A stretch of 64,000 nt of DNA from Hexactinellida sp. DTS-2022 (Eukaryota; Porifera; Hexactinellida): assembly GCA_028753945.1 (NCBI GenBank), contig JAPNXP010000014.1, positions 3,906,001-3,970,000 of the forward strand, in the 5' to 3' direction. Numbering within the stretch: the first letter of the stretch is position 1; every line of letters starts with the position of its first letter. The translations under genes were made by a program, and so were the position numbers. Under the pieces are notes generated by a model. That model saw only the letters and a program-made list of their open reading frames with translations. It made no database searches and was not told where the DNA came from. This document shows positions 48,371-59,601 of the stretch, piece by piece.

Positions 48371-49577
48371 TATCGATGTAAATATCCTTCAGATTCTGAA
48401 TAACTTGTTGCTGCAACGGTACTACAACATATTTACTTAGATAGCATACAGTTACTAAAATGTGTTTATAGCCATCTTAACTCTCATGTAGGTCGCATAT
48501 ATGGCTTCGAGTTTTAGGAGGTTGGATTAGTTGAGTTTCTTTTTGCGGTTGAGGTGGCAAGGTCGCTGTAATCTGACATAATGGCAAGTCTTTACCTTTA
48601 TAATATCAGAAGCCATTACTAACACCCTCGATAATCCGAACTGTTGCTAGTTGAAACAGAAGATCCAAAACTATTTTTCGCATAAATTTGGCTGAAAACA
48701 TCTAATAATTTTGTATATTACAATGGAATTACAGTATACATAAATAAGTTTCAGGCAAGTATTATGTAGTATACTATACTTCTGTAACGATTATAATGTT
48801 ACCAGCACTCGCGTTTATACCACCTGACTTGTTGGATGGCCGTTTGATCATCTTGTGACGATATTTCCCGAAATGCTTATCCCCTTTGTAAGTGGTCCGT
48901 AGAAACCCTCCTATATTCCCCGTTGATCTTTGGAATATTTTCCATCTTGAAGCTCAACCTGGGACTACTAATTTGTCGAGGCATGGCACCGATATTAGAA
49001 CAATTATTTTAAACACTCTGGGATTCCTGTCCCCTAAACAATATTTCCCTTGGATACGCCTGGCCTTTTTATTCTATACGTTTAGGTCCCTCTAGCCGAA
49101 GATGGGCACTTTAACTAAGGCCAGGAAAAGAAGATTCCCTAAAGGAAAACAATATTTCCTAAGAAATATTGTTCGGGGAACAATTTTCACGGGAGAACAG
49201 GATCTCCTCTGGCCCCTGGATCATTTTTGTCGCCATAACTGATTTGACTACTATCTATTAGAGAATAGCAAAATGGGGTTCGTAACCGTTCGTTATGTGA
49301 TCAGTTAACGGTGCCATATCCATTCTGGGCTCGTTCGGATATGAACGGGATCACCTATGGTGTGACTGGTCTAATTGGTACAATAAATGCAATAAGCGCT
49401 AATTGCATTTATGGCACGGGGTAGACAGACGAAAAGTTTTTCTAGAGGCGCGAAGAGAAAACTCTAGGAGCGTGGTACCCCTTCTGTCTGTAGTCCGTCT
49501 TCTGGTGATGATTAAAGTAGTTCAGATAAGTCGACAACCCTTTGTGCCATATGCAATAAGAGAGTCTGACCCAGTAG
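48371..49577. other. Mostly unexplained; possible MULE scrap
   Basis: Plus frame 48892-49095 begins RNPPIFPVDLWNIFHLEAQP, with TTNLSRHGTD after it. This loosely resembles the 'P..LWN......RTNN..E.WH' region of MULE transposases. Too short to call. Around 49120-49200 there is a small inverted segment (AACAATATTTCC / AGAAATATTGTT). Confidence 0.3.
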
Positions 49578-49586
49578 GGGGGCGCT

Positions 49587-49790
49587 GCATTAGTGCGAAT
49601 TTCTAGAGTTGTCATTAGTGCGAATTTGAAGAGTTGGCATTAGTTCTACTCGAGATTTAGAGAGTTGGCATTAGTTCTACTCAAAAATTGGAGATTTGGC
49701 ATTAGTTCTACTCGAGATTTAGAGAGTTGGCATTAGTTCTACTCGAGATTTAGAGAGTTGGCATTAGTTCTACTCGATTAAGGCCAAAAA
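49587..49790 (+). repeat. Left terminal array, 31 bp units
   Basis: Two shorter leading units (CATTAGTGCGAATTT) are followed by about five units of 31 bp, each holding GTTGGCATTAGTTCTACTCG and ATTTAGAGA; one variant has AAAAATTGGAGA. Each unit restates the GCATTAG motif of the terminus. Confidence 0.85.
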
Positions 49791-49993
49791 GCGGGAGAGT
49801 CAGCAACCCTATACTGTTGTTAGTGAGCTTTAGGTTTCACATAATTATATCGTTAGGTTTCACATAATTATATCTTAGGTTCACATAATTGTTCATGATT
49901 TTGCGTGTGCGATTTAAAAACTGTGAAATATCAACACCCCATAGATTCCTATAAAGTAGAACACAATGTGCATACCCAAAAGAAATTCGGAAA

Positions 49994-51604
49994 ATGGAAT
50001 ACAAAACAGACAATTATAGACGCATGAGTGGGCATATTCTCACTACAGCAGATGGTCATAAGTATCTTAAACGGAAATATACAGTTAAATCAGTCGGTAC
50101 CTCAAATGTGCGGTATTCAGAGATGGATGGAAAGCAACGGCTAAAGTGGATAGGGACAGGGATTTGATTACCCCAGGCAACGTACATAACCACGAAATCA
50201 TGAACTACCATTCAGAAACCTTTGACCTAAAGAAGAAATGCAAAACCAAGGCACGTACCTCACAGGATCCTCTTCGAAAAATATTCGATGATACGACTAG
50301 AGAGGATTCTTTTGCAACAGAGGTATCATTCCCTCAAATCGAATCTTCAATGTTTCGCTCAAGAAAGAGTTTAGAGCCGAAAATACCTTCAAACGCTACA
50401 GAATTATCTCTGTTATTACCGACTACCACCTTTGGAAAGTTCCATAAAAGTAAAGTTACAATTAATGACCAAACAGCTCTCATATTCTTCTCTGATAAAA
50501 TGATGGATTTAGTATCATAGGCACCTGATATTCAGTTCGATAGAACTTTTTACTGTGTTCCAAAGCAATTTTATCAACTGTGGACCATTTTTGTAAGAGT
50601 TGAAAGGCACTCCTTACCTGCAATCCATTGTCTTTTGACAGGAAAAGAACAAGGGCTATACAAATGCATTATGGAAAGTATTCGCAATCTTGTACCACAG
50701 TTCAATCCTATGTCATGTATGTCAGACTGGGAAATCGCTCCAAGAAATGTAATGAAGGAGCTTTATCCAGATATTAATATCAAAGGCTGTTGGTTTCATT
50801 TTACGCAACGCATCTGGCATCAAACCCAAAAACTCGGACTTGTCAACAGTTTTCACAGCAATCGAGACTTATCAACATTTGTCAGCACTTGATGGCCATT
50901 CCCTTCCTCCCATCTACACTGATACAACCAACTTACAGTCTTCTAAATTCTCCTACGACACTTACTGATACAGATAGGGTCAATTTAGATAAACTTAAAA
51001 GATATTTTACGAAGAGATGGCTCTGTCAGGTTAGTCCCGAGGAATTATCAGTTTTTATATAAAATCAACTACAAATAATTGAGCTGAAAGCTATCATGCA
51101 AAGCTCAAGACAAGAATTCAGGCTGGTCATCCCCGAATTTGGAAATTCTTGACAGTTTTCAACGAAATAATTGCGGATACTGATCCCGACTATGCAAGGT
51201 TGTCAAGTGGGAATGAAATAAGTAGGCCAAGAAAACTTAAGAATATTATCAATGATGAGCGACGATCAACATTTAAAAATCAATTGATTAACGGTAATTT
51301 TACACCTCGGGAATATCTGGAGGCAATAAGTAGTACAATTGGTAAAAACGAAAATAATTTTGGATACACTGATGACTCAGAAGATATTACTGATACTGAC
51401 AACTTGGAAGTGGAGGATAATCCAGAAAGTACAATAAGTCACATTTGTGTGATCTGTTTGAAGCGTAGAACCTCAACTTGGATCTTTTTACCATGCAGAC
51501 ATGCTAACTGCTGTGGTGAATGCAGTAACAAGATTGAAGAACTCGGCCAAACTTGTCCCACATGCCGTTCTACTTTCGTGGATAGGTTCCAAATATATAA
51601 TTAA
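49994..51604 (+). pseudogene. FLYWCH-MULE transposase with C-terminal RING finger, broken
   Basis: From 49994: MEYKTDNYRRMSG and ADGHKYLKRKYTV (FLYWCH-like start, frame lost near 50155). From 50146: TPGNVHNHEIMNYHSETFDL (HNH end of the zinc domain) and PTTTFGKFHKSKVTI. Then IQFDRTFYCVPKQFYQLWTI, where the first catalytic Asp is kept but the usual Gly after it is Arg. Next come SCMSDWEIAPRNVMKEL, KGCWFHFTQRIWHQTQKLGL and AIPFLPSTLI. After more stops, GNEISRPRKLKNIINDE precedes a RING: CVICLKR, CRHANCCGECSN, CPTCRSTF. It needs frame repairs at several points, for example TAG at 50518. RING tails would bind E2 enzymes; their use by transposons is unclear. Confidence 0.85.
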
Positions 51605-51769
51605 CCATCAACTTTACGTGGCCCCTTTTCATTACTCTTTTTTTCTTAACTTATTTATTCATGAAGTAATTTATATTTCATCAATTTCTATTCACCAAGT
51701 TATTATTTCATTATTCTTTATTCATTAAAATCATTACTTCATTATTCTTAATAATTGATGTATTTAAAG

Positions 51770-51966
51770 AGAGTTCTCCCAAAATCAAGTCCAACTCTCT
51801 AAATCTCGAGTAGAACTAATGCCAACTCTCTAAATCTCGAGTAGAACTAATGCCAACTCTCCAATTTTTGAGTAGAACTAATGCCAACTCTCTAAATCTC
51901 GAGTAGAACTAATGCCAACTCTTCAAATTCGCACTAATGACAACTCTAGAAATTCGCACTAATGCA
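51770..51966 (-). repeat. Right terminal array, inverse of 49587-49790
   Basis: Units CTCGAGTAGAACTAATGCC with CAACTCTCTAAAT in 31 bp period, then two short units with AATTCGCACTAATG. The unit order, including the CCAATTTTTGAGTAG variant, mirrors the left array. Confidence 0.85.
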
Positions 51967-52821
51967 TACGCCTCCCCAGTAGCACTCAGACGAGTCGGGA
52001 AGAAGATAGATTCTCATTGGGTTCAGACTGGGTACATTGCTTCTGTGCTGATGTTGACCACAAGCTGTCTCTGCTGGCTCTTCTGAGTTGATGAAATTTT
52101 TGCCTTCCATTTATTCATCAGAACAAGTTCGAACTTAGAACATTGCAGCAGAGATGCAGCGGTCTAGACTGGGACGGGTCGGTCTCAGGTAGGTCCGGTC
52201 CGCTTATTTTCAAGTGTGGTCTGGACCGGTCCAAACTAGCGGTTTAACGGTCTGTACAGGATATTGGTCTGGTTCAAATCAGTCTGGACTCGTCATAGAT
52301 TAGACAAACGATCAGGCTCCAATCCGTTGTTTCCCATTGTTTACAAGCACATAAGTAACAAGTATTTTGTAAACACAAGTAATATACATTGCTTCTCTAC
52401 TATACGATCTGGAACGGTCCAAATAAGGGATGTAACGGTATGAACCGCTTCATCGGTCTGAACAGGTCTAAATTAGAGGTGTACCGGATAGGAAATTTTG
52501 ATATCCGGCTAAAAATTATGCGGGTATCCGGCCGGATACCGGATATAAATATCTAAATTTATATTTATATTTGAATTTATTACTAAATCAAAATATTGTA
52601 TCTAGTCAAGTTAGCAAAGAAGTATCTATGTGCCAGTGGCGGTCGCAGGATATGATCAGCCCGGGGCAGGGCTACGATTAAGCCCCCGGGGCATGTTTTG
52701 CTTTATGTTCTAAGGAACAGTGCTTCTACATCACAAACGTCCAACTGGATGAAAACCACCCTTAATACCATGGATCACCCTGGTACTTAGGTAATTCCCA
52801 CTCAAATTATATATACTAGTA

Positions 52822-52983
52822 CAGGGGTTCCCAACCTTTTCTCAGGCGCGTACCCCTTATATACAAATGTAGTGATACGCGTACCCCTTATATACAAATG
52901 TAGTGATACGCGTACCCCCTCCCATTAACAGTAATGCAGCCTTTTTAGCTTCCACGTGACCTATGTTGGGAACTACTGCACTG
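52822..52983. mobile_element. hAT-type MITE, fourth level, 162 bp
   Basis: Left end CAGGGGTTCCCAACC; right end GTTGGGAACTACTGCACTG; octamers TACTAGTA (52814-52821) and TATTAGTA (52984-52991) match 7/8. The segment CCTTATATACAAATGTAGTG is tandemly duplicated inside (period 37 bp). Confidence 0.8.
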
Positions 52984-53169
52984 TATTAGTAGTTTGGAAT
53001 ACGATTATCATATAATCATTCCTTTCAATAATGTTAATTTACTTAATAGGTATAAGTTTGGTAAATATAAAAACATCTTAAGAACAGATTTTTGATAGTC
53101 GCTTTTGTTCGATGAATTGAATTTACGAGGTTCAAGTTCAAAAGAATCAATCAATTAGAATATTCCATC

Positions 53170-53336
53170 CAGGCCCGGCGGAAGCTCGTGAGAGGTGGGG
53201 CGGCCTTGTGAGATGTGGGGCAGCCTTGTATAATATTATTACGAACCACGCCCGCGAAATTTCAAAGTATCATACAAATCACAGAAAAAGTGGGGCGGCC
53301 CAGGCCGCCCCAACCGCCCCTCTTCCGCCGGCCCTG
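53170..53336. mobile_element. hAT-type MITE, fourth level, 167 bp
   Basis: Ends CAGGCCCGGCGGAAG and CTTCCGCCGGCCCTG; exact flanks ATTCCATC (53162-53169, 53337-53344). GTGGGGCGGCC recurs at both ends. Confidence 0.92.
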
Positions 53337-53563
53337 ATTCCATCACAGGAATATTCTAATTGATTAATGTAACAATTGTAAATTCTACAAAAAGATTAGG
53401 ATGGCAATTCAACCCGATCTCTACCCGGGACGAAAAACAACTAAGAATCCGGGGCAGGCCCCGGGGCGAAAAGCAACTCAGGACCCGGGGCCGGGGCAGA
53501 GTCTACTAGATCTGGGGAATTTGCCCCGGTCGCCCCACCCCCTGGGACCGCCACTGCTATGTG

Positions 53564-53686
53564 CTAAACCAACTTCTATTTATAGCGAAAGATTATTCAG
53601 CACTGCTGAGATAATCTTCGAAGAGAAGCGTAGTAGACTAGTACCAGAAAACGGAGAGAGTCTTCTCTTTATTCAGAAATACTAAC
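53564..53686 (+). pseudogene. hAT transposase dimerisation-domain remnant
   Basis: The reading SIYSERLFSTAEIIFEEKRS then RLVPENGESLLFIQKY, ending in TAA, is the C-terminal hAT dimerisation segment ('SERLFS.A..I...RR..L.P......LF...'). It belongs to the second-level element at 52474-53955. The rest of the transposase is absent, cut off at the third-level insertion. Confidence 0.8.
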
Positions 53687-54544
53687 CACTCTTAGATTTC
53701 ACCTATTAGCACGACTAGGTTTGAGATATAGCATCATAATCCTTATTTAGATATTTTAGTTTGCTAGATCAAGATATTATTTCGCACAAATTTCAATAAA
53801 TTGAGTTCAGGTGATGTGTTTTCTATATTTATTTTTTCAAAAATGGTCGAGATTGTTATTTTATATATCCGGCGGATATTGATCATATCCTGCCGGTCCG
53901 AATATCCGGGAAATGGCCGGATATAAGCGGATACCGGATATCTGGTGCACCTCTAGTCCAAATAAGGGATGTAACGGTATGGACCGCTTCATCGATCTGG
54001 ACTGGTCCAGACCGATTCAATATTTTGATCTTACGATCTGAACCGTTCAGAAAAAATCAATGACGGTCCGATCCGGTCCATCAAATTGCCGGTACGCTGC
54101 ATCTCTGCATTGCAGCCATTTAGTACGACCATTTCAGTTTTCGGTCGCCTAGCGATGGTTTATTTCTTAACGGAGTCCGTTTCGCCTACTTTGTTCGTCC
54201 GTATTTAGCGCAACTTGCCTCAGTCAACCACCGTTACTTGTGTAACAACAACAATATATTTCTTACTTGTAATTAATAATTATACAATTCGTAGTCACTT
54301 ACTTGTATCAAAATTCTTAGAATTTTCCCGGGTCACATTGAATATCAGCAGGGCACTTATACACTCAACTACTTAGACTTAAACTAAGTAAATCTAAGTA
54401 CAAATTACAGCTGTGCCAACTGCACTTCATTTGGAGGTAACTTATTCGGTGATTTAATGGTTAATAGTGCCTCAACCAAAATTTTCTGTCTGTACAGCTG
54501 TAATTTTGTTTTTTCACACCTAGGGTGGAATGTATTATCAATCT

Positions 54545-54985
54545 AACGAGTCCTTCGGTCTCGTCCGCTTCGCGATGATTCACCTAACCGCTAAGCATTT
54601 AGATAGATGCCACAGATACCACTTGTGGCACAAATGGAAATGTGGCTGTATCTCAGTAGAAATATTCGGAATGATTAGAAATTAAGTACCTATAGTAATC
54701 CGACCATGTGGTATTCAAATCTGAAATAGGAATTTGTATATTCTCATTGGCTCATAATGATCAGAAATTATAGACTTAATTTGCTAATTATATGGTTAAT
54801 GAGTTTAACACCTCCATAAAAATGTAAATTCAAATATAATCTTATTTTATTTTAGTTAACATATCGTTTATGTCCACATCCATGTTGAAGCATCTACAAT
54901 TATTATTATCCTGCTAGTAGCTTGAATGTACGATTACAAATTATTGTTGTTCAAATACTTTTGGCCGTTTGGTGTAGAATCAGAT
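54545..54985. mobile_element. Tc1/mariner-type copy joined to a Helitron-like tail
   Basis: From about 54600 the sequence follows the interior and right end of the 11723-12286 element (CCTCCATAAAAAT, CATATCGTTTATG, TTCAAATACTTTTGGCCG). The left Tc1 end is missing. In its place at 54551-54580 is AACGAGTCCTTCGGTCTCG with CGCTTCGCG, a Helitron-like 3' tail on the minus strand. Confidence 0.55.
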
Positions 54986-56856
54986 TTAACTGTTTTACTG
55001 AAACTGAAGTGTGAGTAAACAAAGAAATTCCAACATCTATTTATGGCATGAATTAAACCCTTTATTAAAATTTGTCTTCCCCCAATTGACGCATAAATTT
55101 ATGATGAATCCAATGGTGAAAAAAGAAACATTAGGGTTGAGTATAACATTTTTGCGTTATCGACCAGACAAATTTTGGAAGGTGCCAAATTTGTTAAGCA
55201 AATATTGTAATCCAAGATGCAAAATATACGGTCACTCCGCACCTACATGCCAAGTTTCACCAACTATAAAGCTCTGGCCAGGGGACCGTTTAAGGAGAAA
55301 AAAAAATAATAAAAATATTAAGGCAGTGAGATTAGAACTGGGCCACTATTCTATAGTATAGTCGGCACAGTAATTAGTAATGGTCTACCACAATATGTTG
55401 TGTTATATTAATAATCATCCATAAACACCGAAATAAATACCTGCTGAATACTAGTAAGCTAATTCTGATTTTTTTATATTGAAGCCAAAGATATCTACTT
55501 ATTCTATCATACCTCCTAATACGTTCAGGTTAACAACTTGATAAATTCTCGCAATATATAAAACTATGCTTAGACTCTAATCAAGGGTCAAAGAGTTGTA
55601 AACCACTTTCCACTGGAGGACGTCCACCTATAATGTTAGCGTCATATGCTTGTCATATTCGACGAATCTCTAAATATGGGAGGAATAGCAGATTTTCTTT
55701 TGTAGCTTCATGTACTGTAAAGTTATTTGTTATGAAGTGGTTTGGAACAGTCCTGGATATAATATGCTGCGAAGATCCGAAAGGGTGAGATCTATGAAAA
55801 TTAATAGAGGTATTTCTGAATGTGAAACAGTAAAACCGGTGTCTTTCTCCCTAACATGTGTTTTGTCGCACATTAGCTTTTTATGAAATGTATTCATAGA
55901 ATTGCTGTATAATATTTAATTGAATTATTTGAGAATTTCATTCAAATACTATTTGATATGAATTATAGTCATTCAATATAATCTTATGAAGTATTTTATC
56001 ATTTCTTTTGTTCATTTGAGTATCTAGAGTAATGTCAAGTTGTCAACAGTAATTGTATATGTATAGAACTTGAGCAATTTTCTAGAAAACACATGAAATT
56101 GTGGATTACTGTAAAAACAATACAAATGACACCATTAGAATCGTGAGAAACTCAATTTATTGAATGTATCTCTTGTTTATAAGATGCATCCATAATTGTA
56201 ACTGAACAGATTTGAGTTCCAAATTACGTATGATTCTATTTGTTTACAACTCCTGATCAAAGTGATCTATAAACAATATAAAAATAGTCATTCGCATTCG
56301 AGCTGTATTTCTCTTCAACTAATCTACATTTTCTATCTCTAAAATTCTAATTGCTACACATGGTAAACAAACAGAAACACTAATAATATTGAATAATGGC
56401 ATCGAAGGAACCACGAAACGTAGAAGAGTGCTGCTTCGGTGAGCGGACCTTCTCTTGTATCTCAATAATCGGAGCTTATTGAGTTAGACTCTTTGGATGT
56501 GACCAGTCAACTCTAAGATTCTGCTACGGAAACTACATCCATGTTAACAAAACCACGCACAAGTCTTAGAGGAAATAAGTTGAGTAGTTAAACTTTCTCC
56601 CGGATAACAGATGGCTGGATTTAAAGATGAATTTATAAATTGATTTGGATTTAAAGATTGAGGAAAGTCCACTTATAAATATGCAAAATGTTTATCCATT
56701 ATCTAGTAATTATAATGTTGATCTTGCTGCGATGGTTTCATCTATGTCAGAAATTGGTTCATGAATAAAGTACACGAAAGGGCTAATGGATTATTTGAAA
56801 TTAATTGTATTGGTACTTGTGCTTCAAAGCTATTGTTCAGGTGCAGTGAGTGGATA
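54986..56856. other. Mostly featureless stretch
   Basis: Contains the doubtful frame at 55011-55361. The remainder is AT-rich with no detectable repeats, domains or element ends. Confidence 0.4.
55011..55361 (+). CDS. Unrecognised ORF, 116 codons
   Basis: Starts MSKQRNSNIYLWHELN, contains NPRCKIYGHSAPTCQ (two Cys and a His close together) and a basic stretch RLRRKKNNKN. No family recognised. The ATG overlaps an in-frame TGA-rich leader just after the Tc1-like right end, and base use looks like the surrounding non-coding DNA, so it may be chance. Composition is moderately basic and no membrane segment is seen. Confidence 0.2.
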   Translation: MSKQRNSNIYLWHELNPLLKFVFPQLTHKFMMNPMVKKETLGLSITFLRYRPDKFWKVPNLLSKYCNPRCKIYGHSAPTCQVSPTIKLWPGDRLRRKKNNKNIKAVRLELGHYSIV

Positions 56857-56867
56857 GGGAGGTTCAT

Positions 56868-57200
56868 GCATTTGTCCGAATCAATATTTGATCGACTGTC
56901 ACTTGTCCGAATCAAAATTTAGATCGACTGTCACTTGTCCGAATCAATATTTGATCGACTGTCACTTGTCCGAATCAATATTTGTTCGACTGTCACTTGT
57001 CCGAATCAAAATTTAGATGACTGTCACTTGTCCGAATCAATATTTGTTCGACTGTCACTTGTCCGAATCAATATTTGATCGACTGTCACTTGTCCGAATC
57101 AATATTTGTTCGACTGTCACTTGTCCGAATCAAAATTTAGATCGACTGTCACTTGTCCGAATCAATATTTGTTCGACTGTCACTTGTCCGAATCAATAAT
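56868..57200 (+). repeat. Left array of second MULE, ~11 units of 31 bp
   Basis: Units run CACTTGTCCGAATC followed by either AATATTTGATCGACTGT, AATATTTGTTCGACTGT or AAAATTTAGATCGACTGT. The three variants alternate in a way that suggests expansion by multi-unit blocks. The first unit starts GCATTTGTCC, equal to the element terminus. Confidence 0.9.
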
Positions 57201-58094
57201 TAGTTTGAATATGAAGTTACTTATCAGACCAGTAAATTATCAACTGTTACTTGCTTGAGCACAAGGATCATAAAATAGGAGTTATTTATTAAATTACTTA
57301 ATAGAATGTGAAAATAATAATATAATTAATGTGTGGAAATATGAAACCTAGACTCTATAAAGGAACGGCACATGGGACAGGGTTGACCAAGGTCAGCGAT
57401 TCTTTGGACCATGGCCTACTACATTATACGGCTAGATAAGCCAAGTATTTGCTCATTTCATTTCCATGCCAGTGTTAATTTCTAATTGCTCGTAAAATAA
57501 ATTACCTATTGTTATGGAATAAACTAAACTTAGGTTTTCAAATACGCTAGAAACATCTAAATACTTTTGAGAATGATTTCACATCGGATTTAACCACAAT
57601 TAAGTAATCATCATTTTAAGGTCTTTCTTCTTTCTAGGTATGGATATTTCTCGCCCATGGCGTAAGCGTCCAATTTCATTGTCCTTATCTGCAATTAATT
57701 CATTTAGTATCGACATAAACGTCCAAAATAGTGGGTAGCAAGTTTTTACTATCGACTTGAACTTTGAATGGTAGCTTTCGGCCGCATTGTTAGTATAAAT
57801 ATTCAGTTCATATGAATTGATAGCTCTTCGGGTGATAATTATTCGGGTTAGCCATCTCTTTTTAAAATATTGGTTTTAATTTTTGCATCTCAGAATGTTC
57901 GATACTAGGCATTTGAATTAAGTTTGCAGTGGAAGTAATCAGAGGTCCTGGCAAAATAGGGATAGCCATCAAATGTTTGATGAAAGATCTTGTGTCTGCG
58001 TTGTTTCTGGATGCATTAGCCAGTCCTAGTTTATGTGTTTTTGCCCATAAACGTTGTGATAGTGGAACCAGCAGCGATATAACTTCACCTGGGG

Positions 58095-58860
58095 CTAAAC
58101 TTCTTTTAGTACATTTCTAGCTACAGGTTCCCAATCTGACATGGAGGCTGAAGGCTGGTGTTGAGGGACATATACGGTAATAGTTTCCAACACCGCTTTA
58201 TATAACTCCTTACTCTTTCCCGTCATTAAGCAGTAAATTGCTGGTAAAGTATGACGTATACCAAAACAAAAATAGTCCACAATTGAGCGAATTGGATAGG
58301 AACTGTATAAAACGTTCCATCAAATTGAATAATTGTAACATCACTTAGCAATTTGGCCATTTGTTCAGAAAAGAAAATCACTCCAGTCTGCTCACCACAA
58401 GTCACCTGAATTTTGAAATATTGGCCATAAGGTGTTGTTGGCAACATACTACAAAATTCATCAGCTGAATCTTTGGTTGAATCTTCTTTCTAGCCAGGTA
58501 CATGGATTACTCACATTCCGGAAAGGAAATATCGCAAGAATGAGGATCAGTTCTAGTCGTATCATCGAACACTTCCCTGAGATTTGATTGCGATGATTTA
58601 GCAGTGGATTTGCATTTGGATTTAAGTTTAAAAATTTCCGACGTATAATCATTCACAGTATGGTTGTGATCTCGCAAAGGGGTAATTAAATTAGTTTCAC
58701 GACTAATCCTGCTAGTTCCCTTGCAGCCAGTACGAAAGATAGCACATTTAAGGAAAATATATTTGTCCGTAGGTTTTGACTGAATGTATTTATTTCCATC
58801 ACAACTTGTTAAGACTTTTCCAAAGCTGCGTTTATATTGTCAATAGTATATTCCATTGTA
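58095..58860 (-). pseudogene. FLYWCH-MULE transposase of second MULE, broken
   Basis: Minus strand from about 58860: TSCDGNKYIQSKPTDKYIFL, CAIFRTGCKGTSRI and PLRDHNHTVNDYTSEIFKL (FLYWCH-like zinc fold with C and HNH residues). From 58447: MLPTTPYGQYFKIQVTCGEQ and IQFDGTFYTVPIQFAQLWTI, with the catalytic Asp and its usual Gly both kept. From 58280: LPAIYCLMTGKSKELYKAV and SASMSDWEPVARNVLKE. Below 58095, AKTHKLGLANASRNNADTRS and LMAIPILPGPLI can still be followed to about 57900. The CWFHF segment is deleted. No RING was found. About half the residues differ from the 49994 copy, by eye. Confidence 0.8.
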
Positions 58861-59000
58861 TTTTGGACAACAAATTATTTCGTAGTATTTATGCATTCTA
58901 TAAGAGATTAGATTGGTGTCTGGAATAAATAAGAAGCCGAAGTATTTTCGATTAACGGTGTGAACTCAAAATACTAAGTATACCTTCATATTCAAACTAA

Positions 59001-59172
59001 TTATTGATTCGGATCTAAATATGTATTCAGACAAGTGACAGTCGATTTAAATATTGATCCGGACAAGTGTCAGTCGATCTAAATATTGATTCGGACAAGT
59101 GACAGTCGATCAAATATTGATTCGGACAAGTGACAGTCGATCAAATATTGATTCGTACAAGTGAAGGTCATT
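59001..59172 (-). repeat. Right array of second MULE
   Basis: About five to six inverse units, each with GATTCGGACAAGTGACAGTC; both the AAATATTGATTCGG and TCTAAATATTGA variants occur. Shorter than the left array. Confidence 0.88.
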
Positions 59173-59601
59173 ACTCCAAAATTCTGACAAATGCAGCTCC
59201 CCCTAGGCGCCCAAAGAGGGGAGGTCAGAGGGGGTTTCACCATCCCTGTTTTTTTTCAGAAAGGGTTTCATCCCACTGGCTGGGAAAAAGTCAGGGAGGG
59301 TATAACCCTCCTGGTTAGTAATCTAACTAGCATTGAGCCTATTGTACATGTATATAATACAAATAATTTTTTCAAATGGTTGTGTGTAATAATTAGAAAT
59401 ATTTCAAATTTTCGTTTCTAAAAATTATACTGATCCTGTTAGTTTATGAATTTCGAATTAGCTACCATATTACTTATTCCAAGCACTCTGATTGTATGAA
59501 ATGTATGATGTCACAAGTACAAATAACGATCCAGTTGACGATATTCTTTATTACGAATACAATGAAGAGCATGAAAATACTGCGAAACGTCATTTATTTA
59601 T

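Follow-up and report, generated by a model that had tools for sequence, protein, structure and literature searches.

What keeps the short repeats at the ends of a transposon at fixed distances from one another? The question is raised by two Mutator-like elements (MULEs) in a 64,000-nucleotide stretch of the genome of Hexactinellida sp. DTS-2022 (assembly GCA_028753945.1, contig JAPNXP010000014.1, positions 3,906,001 to 3,970,000 of the forward strand), called the window below. The genome searched comprises 112.4 Mb in 18 contigs, and the window is C6:3906001-3970000. The original prediction described two MULEs with mirrored arrays of 31-bp units at both ends, and repeat, inverted-repeat, and profile searches confirm them. 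Their limits, given as 49578-51973 and 56857-59205, are refined to 49578-51974 (element 1) and 56859-59202 (element 2). They belong to a group of foldback MULEs, probably of the Phantom type, whose ends follow a two-zone spacing ruler and whose transposase bears a RING finger. Judged from sequence organization, both elements are most likely Mutator-like (Phantom-type) DNA transposons whose ends act as multi-site recognition platforms for transposase. The pattern of conservation suggests that the spacing itself may be kept by the transposing enzyme.

A shared end design

The ends of the two elements are built on one plan. The prediction had taken their repeats to be unrelated, which is wrong: one core, CAYWWGTNMGAAT, is repeated in the arrays of both, and the outer units of element 1 contain CATTAGTGCGAAT and those of element 2 CATTTGTCCGAAT, identical in 11 of 13 letters. 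A GC-rich outer terminus is also common to both elements, and it differs between the two ends of an element. Terminus A reads, for example, GGGGGCGC, and terminus B GAGGCGTA or GAGGTGCA. The A terminus lies on the 5' side of the gene in all five elements compared (window elements 1 and 2, and the elements at loci L083/L075, L085/L077, and L022). Directly inward of the terminus stands TGCAYTWGTYMGAAT or a close variant, and the view that the units restate the element's own terminal motif is supported. The canonical end is thus an asymmetric GC-rich terminus, a terminal copy of the core, and further cores in the same orientation, all mirrored at the opposite end. The arrays lie in long inverted repeats with tandem units in mirrored orientation, which is a foldback-type structure. 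Across 13 families the unit core is TTGKCAYTWGTYMGAAT; counted from its first base, a TT found in all of them follows at 18-19 bp, and the other positions vary. Pairwise identity in these families averages 63% from -7 to +12, compared with 50% from +13 to +23.

Conservation of spacing across families

The distance from one core to the next, or step, is conserved far better than the sequence of the spacers, across families and at both ends, which favors selection on spacing over chance satellites, as had been proposed. A protein search with L007, a relative of element 1, as the query yielded a list of 100 matches, with 98 of 2157 candidates scored. From these, 30 3' ends (12 + 18) were fetched that cover a range of identity and mostly have open or near-open frames. 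If either a tandem repeat finder (TRF) array or a chain of four or more units is counted as an array, 27 of the 30 ends carry one, and unit length is tight within families. Together with the other loci, 16 families that have the core were compiled. Their first step is 24 bp in 13 and 25 bp in three; the second is 25 bp in 14, 24 bp in one, and 34 bp in one; and the inner median is 31 bp in 14 and 32 bp in two. Despite these near-constant steps, the spacers of the core families average 50% identity. The common period of 31 bp that had been predicted for the window elements holds for the inner arrays, but element 1 begins with two steps of 25 bp and the units of element 2 are 31 or 32 bp long.

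Families with other motifs keep a similar outer zone and differ in the inner one. Among 14 RING-MULE families of this kind, the first step is 22 bp in one, 23 bp in seven, 24 bp in five, and 25 bp in one. The second step is 23-27 bp, and the inner steps vary, often alternating 24/29. L052/L062 have steps of 23 and 25 bp. L094 and L102 begin 24,25, and their inner steps alternate 26/38 and 25/37. Ten FLYWCH-MULE loci with no RING match (L049-L051, L053-L056, L061, L064, and L069; Pfam was scanned in four of them) have steps of 14-16 bp, with some gaps of 30-32 bp. A universal step of 31 bp is therefore rejected, because the sister and non-RING families use other steps. The inner step tracks protein identity to the L007 query. 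Of the 12 fetched ends that step at 31 bp, 11 show 48-55% identity and L103 shows 43%; the values are 44-45% in the 24-26-bp ends L087-L092 and 37-41% in the 24/29 ends. Canonical outer steps occur at both ends of L083/L075 and L085/L077, and at one end only of L084/L081.

The family counts depend on how loci were sorted. The table of 16 families omits L073 and L079 (no clear array), L078 (array running to the edge of the stretch, terminus unseen), L010, and L019. In the family of element 2, degenerate half-site matches (16 + 15) were merged to 31. The count of 14 sister families includes the corrected L052/L062 and also L094 and L102, while means and phases come from an uncorrected table of 13 families. 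Left out of that table are L087, whose terminus falls beyond the stretch; L092, with four units but no terminus; L095, which has no terminus and whose 32-bp units were read as 12 + 20; L098, which has no array; and L094 and L102. L058, L059, L062, L066-L068, L091, and L101 were merged or counted with families already listed.

Genome-wide pattern searches give the same two step classes. The core-pair pattern has 11 matches in the window, all within element 2, and none in 100 shuffles. In the genome, TGCAYTWGTYMGAAT followed by a second core 11-41 bp on has 509 matches, and the reversed pattern has none. These two zero counts exclude chance. The step is 24-25 bp in 209 of the pairs and 31-32 bp in 239, together 448 of the 509; three pairs are at 11-22 bp, 15 at 26-30 bp, and the remaining 43 at 23 or 33-41 bp. 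Matches within one array are not independent, and the pattern misses the other-motif families and the whole of window element 1. The first 100 of the 209 matches at 24-25 bp form 94 clusters. Neighboring clusters within 6 kb make up 12 inward-facing pairs 0.8-3.5 kb apart, one outward-facing pair, and no same-strand pair, an inward-facing excess that is expected of transposon ends. At G000:C6:4138581-4139447, two inward-facing ends with 24-bp first steps lie 0.83 kb apart; this is probably a short non-autonomous element.

Neutral inheritance is an unlikely source of this constancy. It would hold that satellite-like copying and homogenization produced the arrays, and that the 31-bp period is shared through a single ancestor. 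Homogenization is real, since the units of one array match their consensus at 91-98% and the families differ. Slow divergence with few insertions and deletions (indels) could also preserve a period: at a pairwise distance of 0.5 and 0.094 indels per substitution, P = 0.13. However, small indels do occur in the elements, at 0.156 per substitution in the copies of family 1 and 0.094 in the relatives, and for spacer distances of 0.8-1.2 the probability that 31 bp is retained in 14 or more of the 16 families falls from 0.015 to 7e-7. The model is rough, with a star tree and 14 free spacer positions, and its values run from 0.13 to 7e-7 across all distances and rates used; because it ignores the true tree, it offers support and not proof. 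The stronger point against ancestry is that a first step of 22-25 bp is common to families with different motifs.

Helical phasing could account for the inner zone at best. In the original prediction, a period close to three helical turns would put the repeated sites on the same DNA face for cooperative binding of transposase, and the 31-bp length would be selected for that reason. The inner 31- and 32-bp steps do deviate from whole turns by no more than -13 degrees at 10.5 bp per turn (R 0.98), and a same-face arrangement may be possible there, and only there; for the 31 group, this R is largely a consequence of the fixed step length. The first two steps (24 and 25 bp, about 2.3-2.4 turns), on the other hand, correspond to a rotation of about 100 degrees or more, and their conservation is just as strict as that of the 31-bp step. 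In the sister families the inner medians are 21-29 bp (25, 26, and alternating 24/29) and the phases scatter (R 0.40, 13 families). The alternating steps of L094 and L102 and the 14-16-bp steps of FLYWCH-MULEs lacking RING speak against the idea as well. Since conserved steps of 24-25, 26, and 29 bp are not whole turns, three turns on one face are not supported as the general cause, and this version of the explanation is doubtful. When the unit is examined for a second half-site, the offset of 16 bp (z 3.4) scores no better than offsets of 5, 13, 24, and 25 (z 3.1-3.4). The reading of 31 bp as two 15.5-bp half-sites is thus not favored over other offsets.

Structure of the window elements

Element 1 is a transposon with its gene on the + strand and a broken transposase frame. 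It is 2397 bp long and has a perfect 8-bp target duplication, CCCAGTAG, on either flank (49570-49577 and 51975-51982). Terminus A (GGGGGCGCT) is at 49578-49586, + strand, and is followed by the left array at 49587-49777, + strand, with seven core sites at 49588, 49613, 49638, 49669, 49700, 49731, and 49762, giving steps of 25,25,31,31,31,31. The right array (51791-51966, - strand) mirrors the left, with steps of 25,25,31,31,31 inward from terminus B at 51967-51974, - strand, which reads GAGGCGTA from the outside inward. TRF reports the period-31 arrays at 49630-49777 and 51791-51922. Between the arrays, on the + strand, are a piece of the MULE transposase domain at 50521-50892 (PF10551, 35.8 bits, E-value 1.1e-8) and a C-terminal piece with a RING finger at 51083-51604 (PF13920, 43.8 bits, E-value 2.2e-11). 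A weak 31-bp repeat at 51674-51749 (2.5 AT-rich units, 78% match), interior to the element and adjoining the right array, is perhaps a decayed extension of that array. Outside both elements, 52847-52918 holds 2.3 identical 31-bp tandem units (CGCGTACCCCTTATATACAAATGTAGTGATA) with no evident likeness to the arrays.

The arms of element 1 are 176 nt long and 99% complementary by inverted-repeat search, which raises the possibility that the arrays serve as a hairpin. Other roles of this kind would be a promoter or enhancer of the gene or a target of host silencing. Plant Mutator long terminal inverted repeats (TIRs) hold promoters plus transposase binding sites (PMC3310237). However, the arrays are at both ends, including behind the gene, with mirrored sites; family 1 retains them despite a broken transposase frame; and a hairpin requires complementarity, not a fixed core and step. 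Such roles are very improbable as the reason for the arrays, and recognition of the ends by transposase would remain the better account.

Element 2 (56859-59202, - strand gene) belongs to a second family and is a badly broken, rearranged copy. No target duplication is seen at its limits. TRF places its arrays at 56872-57198 and 59012-59164 with periods of 31 and 32. The left array spans 56869-57208 on the + strand with 31/32-bp units and lacks the outer 24/25-bp units of the family. The right array (59012-59195, - strand) has steps of 30,31,31,32,32 inward from the terminus. Element 2 is rejected as the representative of a family lacking outer units, because the family copies L022, L023, and L029 begin 24,25. 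Transposase remnants occupy 57600-58839, - strand, as open pieces at 58507-58839, 58226-58489, 58095-58319, 57862-58116, and 57600-57875. No RING match is found in these remnants, and the MULE match of the window copy is 16.0 bits, below the cut-off of 27.6; the close copy L022 has a MULE domain at 42.2 bits (E 1.1e-10). A stretch of about 200 bp within the element, 57406-57610, recurs in the genome dozens of times at about 93%, frequently in inverted pairs separated by about 0.6 kb. It is probably another small transposon inserted into element 2.

Copies and target duplications

Family 1 has spread recently in a form that lacks an open transposase frame. There are six copies in the genome (L001-L006, L001 being the window copy), with inter-array divergence of 0.2-1.1% and an 8/8-bp target duplication at each. 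The first frame break is common to all six. The second is matched in five, and L003 has the same frame ends. Recent spread lacking an open frame implies that the ends are presumably mobilized in trans. At L003:1138-1328, about 160 bp from the family 1 copy, lies another array that follows the ruler (24,25,31,31,31,31), showing that two related elements adjoin there. Family 2 has four further copies (L022-L025) at 88-92%, and the target duplications of L022 and L023 are 8/8 bp.

Both termini could be located in 12 of the 16 loci tried, the window copy among them, and each of the 12 has one A and one B terminus. The flanks are equal at 8/8 bp in 11 and at 7/8 in one. The terminus pair was not found in the other four (L008, L009, L014, and L024). 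Membership of the MULE superfamily is established by the domain, found in element 1, L022, L083, L084, and L085, and by the duplications of about 8 bp at the 12 loci with both termini; window element 2 shows no duplication. The element 1 relative at L007:310-3818 has a 581-nt inverted repeat at 96%, about 22 32-bp units on the left and nine on the right, and an open MULE-RING frame of 427 aa. MULEs are very numerous in this genome: at least 150 PF10551 matches, all above the cut-off, were obtained with 150 of 961 candidates scored, and many have long open frames. No relative of the elements was confirmed in the viral_contigs set and none was found in phages. The Rfam scan of the window has no match at the gathering score.

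Domains of the transposases

Intact relatives unexpectedly carry RING-finger domains in addition to MULE domains. Both are present in L083 (544 aa), L084 (538 aa within the stretch), and L085 (539 aa), with PF10551 at 52.6, 48.1, and 34.1 bits, respectively, and RING at 30-45 bits, cut short in L084. In L083/L075 and L085/L077 the open frame, of 544 and 539 aa respectively, is flanked on both sides by a canonical end. Three blocks, QFDGTF, MSDWE, and NN-AESYH, are conserved and presumably hold the catalytic triad. The nearest solved structures to the L083 RING are the RINGs of MGRN1, CGRRF1, and XIAP. A RING was not found for this MULE group in the literature searched, which in excerpts including PMC6446971 mentions a C3HC4 RING for one Phytophthora element. 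The RING-bearing transposase is provisionally regarded as new to the group. The Phantom subclass is characterized by an N-terminal FLYWCH zinc finger together with a MULE domain. FLYWCH is above the cut-off in five of seven scanned MULEs lacking RING (26-46 bits). It has no Pfam match in L007, whose frame lacks the N-terminus.

Proposed recognition of the ends

A model in which transposase reads several spaced sites is the most likely explanation. An N-terminal FLYWCH-like domain of the transposase would bind the core, and the geometry of the active end complex would set the first two steps, which would explain their constancy across the RING-MULE families sampled. The inner array may load additional transposase, so that specificity could arise from a short motif, and the inner step would be a property of each transposase lineage. 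The ends of family 1 would presumably be used in trans by the enzyme of another family. A precedent is Galileo, whose THAP domain binds several sites in long repetitive TIRs (PMC3688188), and the same source describes Phantom and Foldback repeats as untested in this role.

Several findings weigh against this model. No clear array is seen at three of the 30 3' ends (L073, L079, and L098): L073 shares inner sequence with L072 and has lost its array, and L079 is degenerate at best. The second step of L081 is 34 bp, and at L084, which is the left end of that element, every step is 31 bp and the stretch contains no terminus. Window element 2 departs from the ruler with first steps of 31 and 30 bp, as does L024 (step 16), and the first visible step of L030 is 25 bp and the next 31. 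The steps were compiled by hand from script output, and kinship among families makes the effective sample smaller than 16. FLYWCH in the RING-group proteins is below the 23.6-bit cut-off (L085 20.7, L066 17.9, L065 17.5, L084 and L057 16.0), and the Pfam profile has no match in L083 or L022. Finally, subterminal repeat arrays are assumed to be necessary but can be inhibitory, for example in piggyBat (PMC11707139).

A broader and more tentative proposal is that the ends might carry a heritable spacing code. An outer zone of about 24 and then about 25 bp would serve the end complex, and an inner zone of 31, 26, 24/29, or 15/16 bp would depend on the transposase lineage. Spacing and repeat sequence together would choose the enzyme, and the RING could ubiquitinate and clear a crowded multi-site complex. 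The many families that change motif and spacer but keep their steps amount to a natural mutagenesis experiment. The family set yields predictions about what feature of an end is important and provides matched ends, and the RING-MULE fusion is a testable link between transposase and ubiquitin.

Comparison with known systems

Long repetitive ends are found in several transposon superfamilies, and the FB element of Drosophila is linked to a MULE-type enzyme, NOF. The closest known systems include FLYWCH-bearing MULEs. Muta1 has FLYWCH and a MULE transposase, 8-9-bp target duplications, and long TIRs in which a terminal motif is followed by short tandem repeats (grouping from PMC6446971). Its repeats of 12 bp with 3-4-bp spacers give steps of 15-16 bp, near those of the non-RING FLYWCH-MULEs of this genome (14-16). 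In contrast, the window group has a C-terminal RING, steps of 24/25, 25, and 31, and two different outer termini; in the excerpt of the Muta1 paper the word RING is not found and two-zone spacing is not mentioned. Tm1, a Mutator/Foldback element of Meloidogyne, also has a FLYWCH-MULE transposase, TIRs with variable numbers of tandem units, and asymmetric 7-bp outer motifs beyond the inverted repeat. It differs in its 13-15-bp units and 9-bp target duplications, and RING is not mentioned in the excerpt (PMC3169594).

Two other foldback elements are comparable. Drosophila FB has mirrored blocks of 27-31-bp repeats around a middle region, a structural likeness, but the repeats lie inside end sequences of 467-479 bp in blocks of five (PMC7642927). 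Galileo is a foldback element of the P superfamily with a THAP-type transposase and so belongs to another superfamily, but it too has long, internally repetitive TIRs, in which several transposase sites were located by footprinting and electrophoretic mobility shift assay (PMC3688188).

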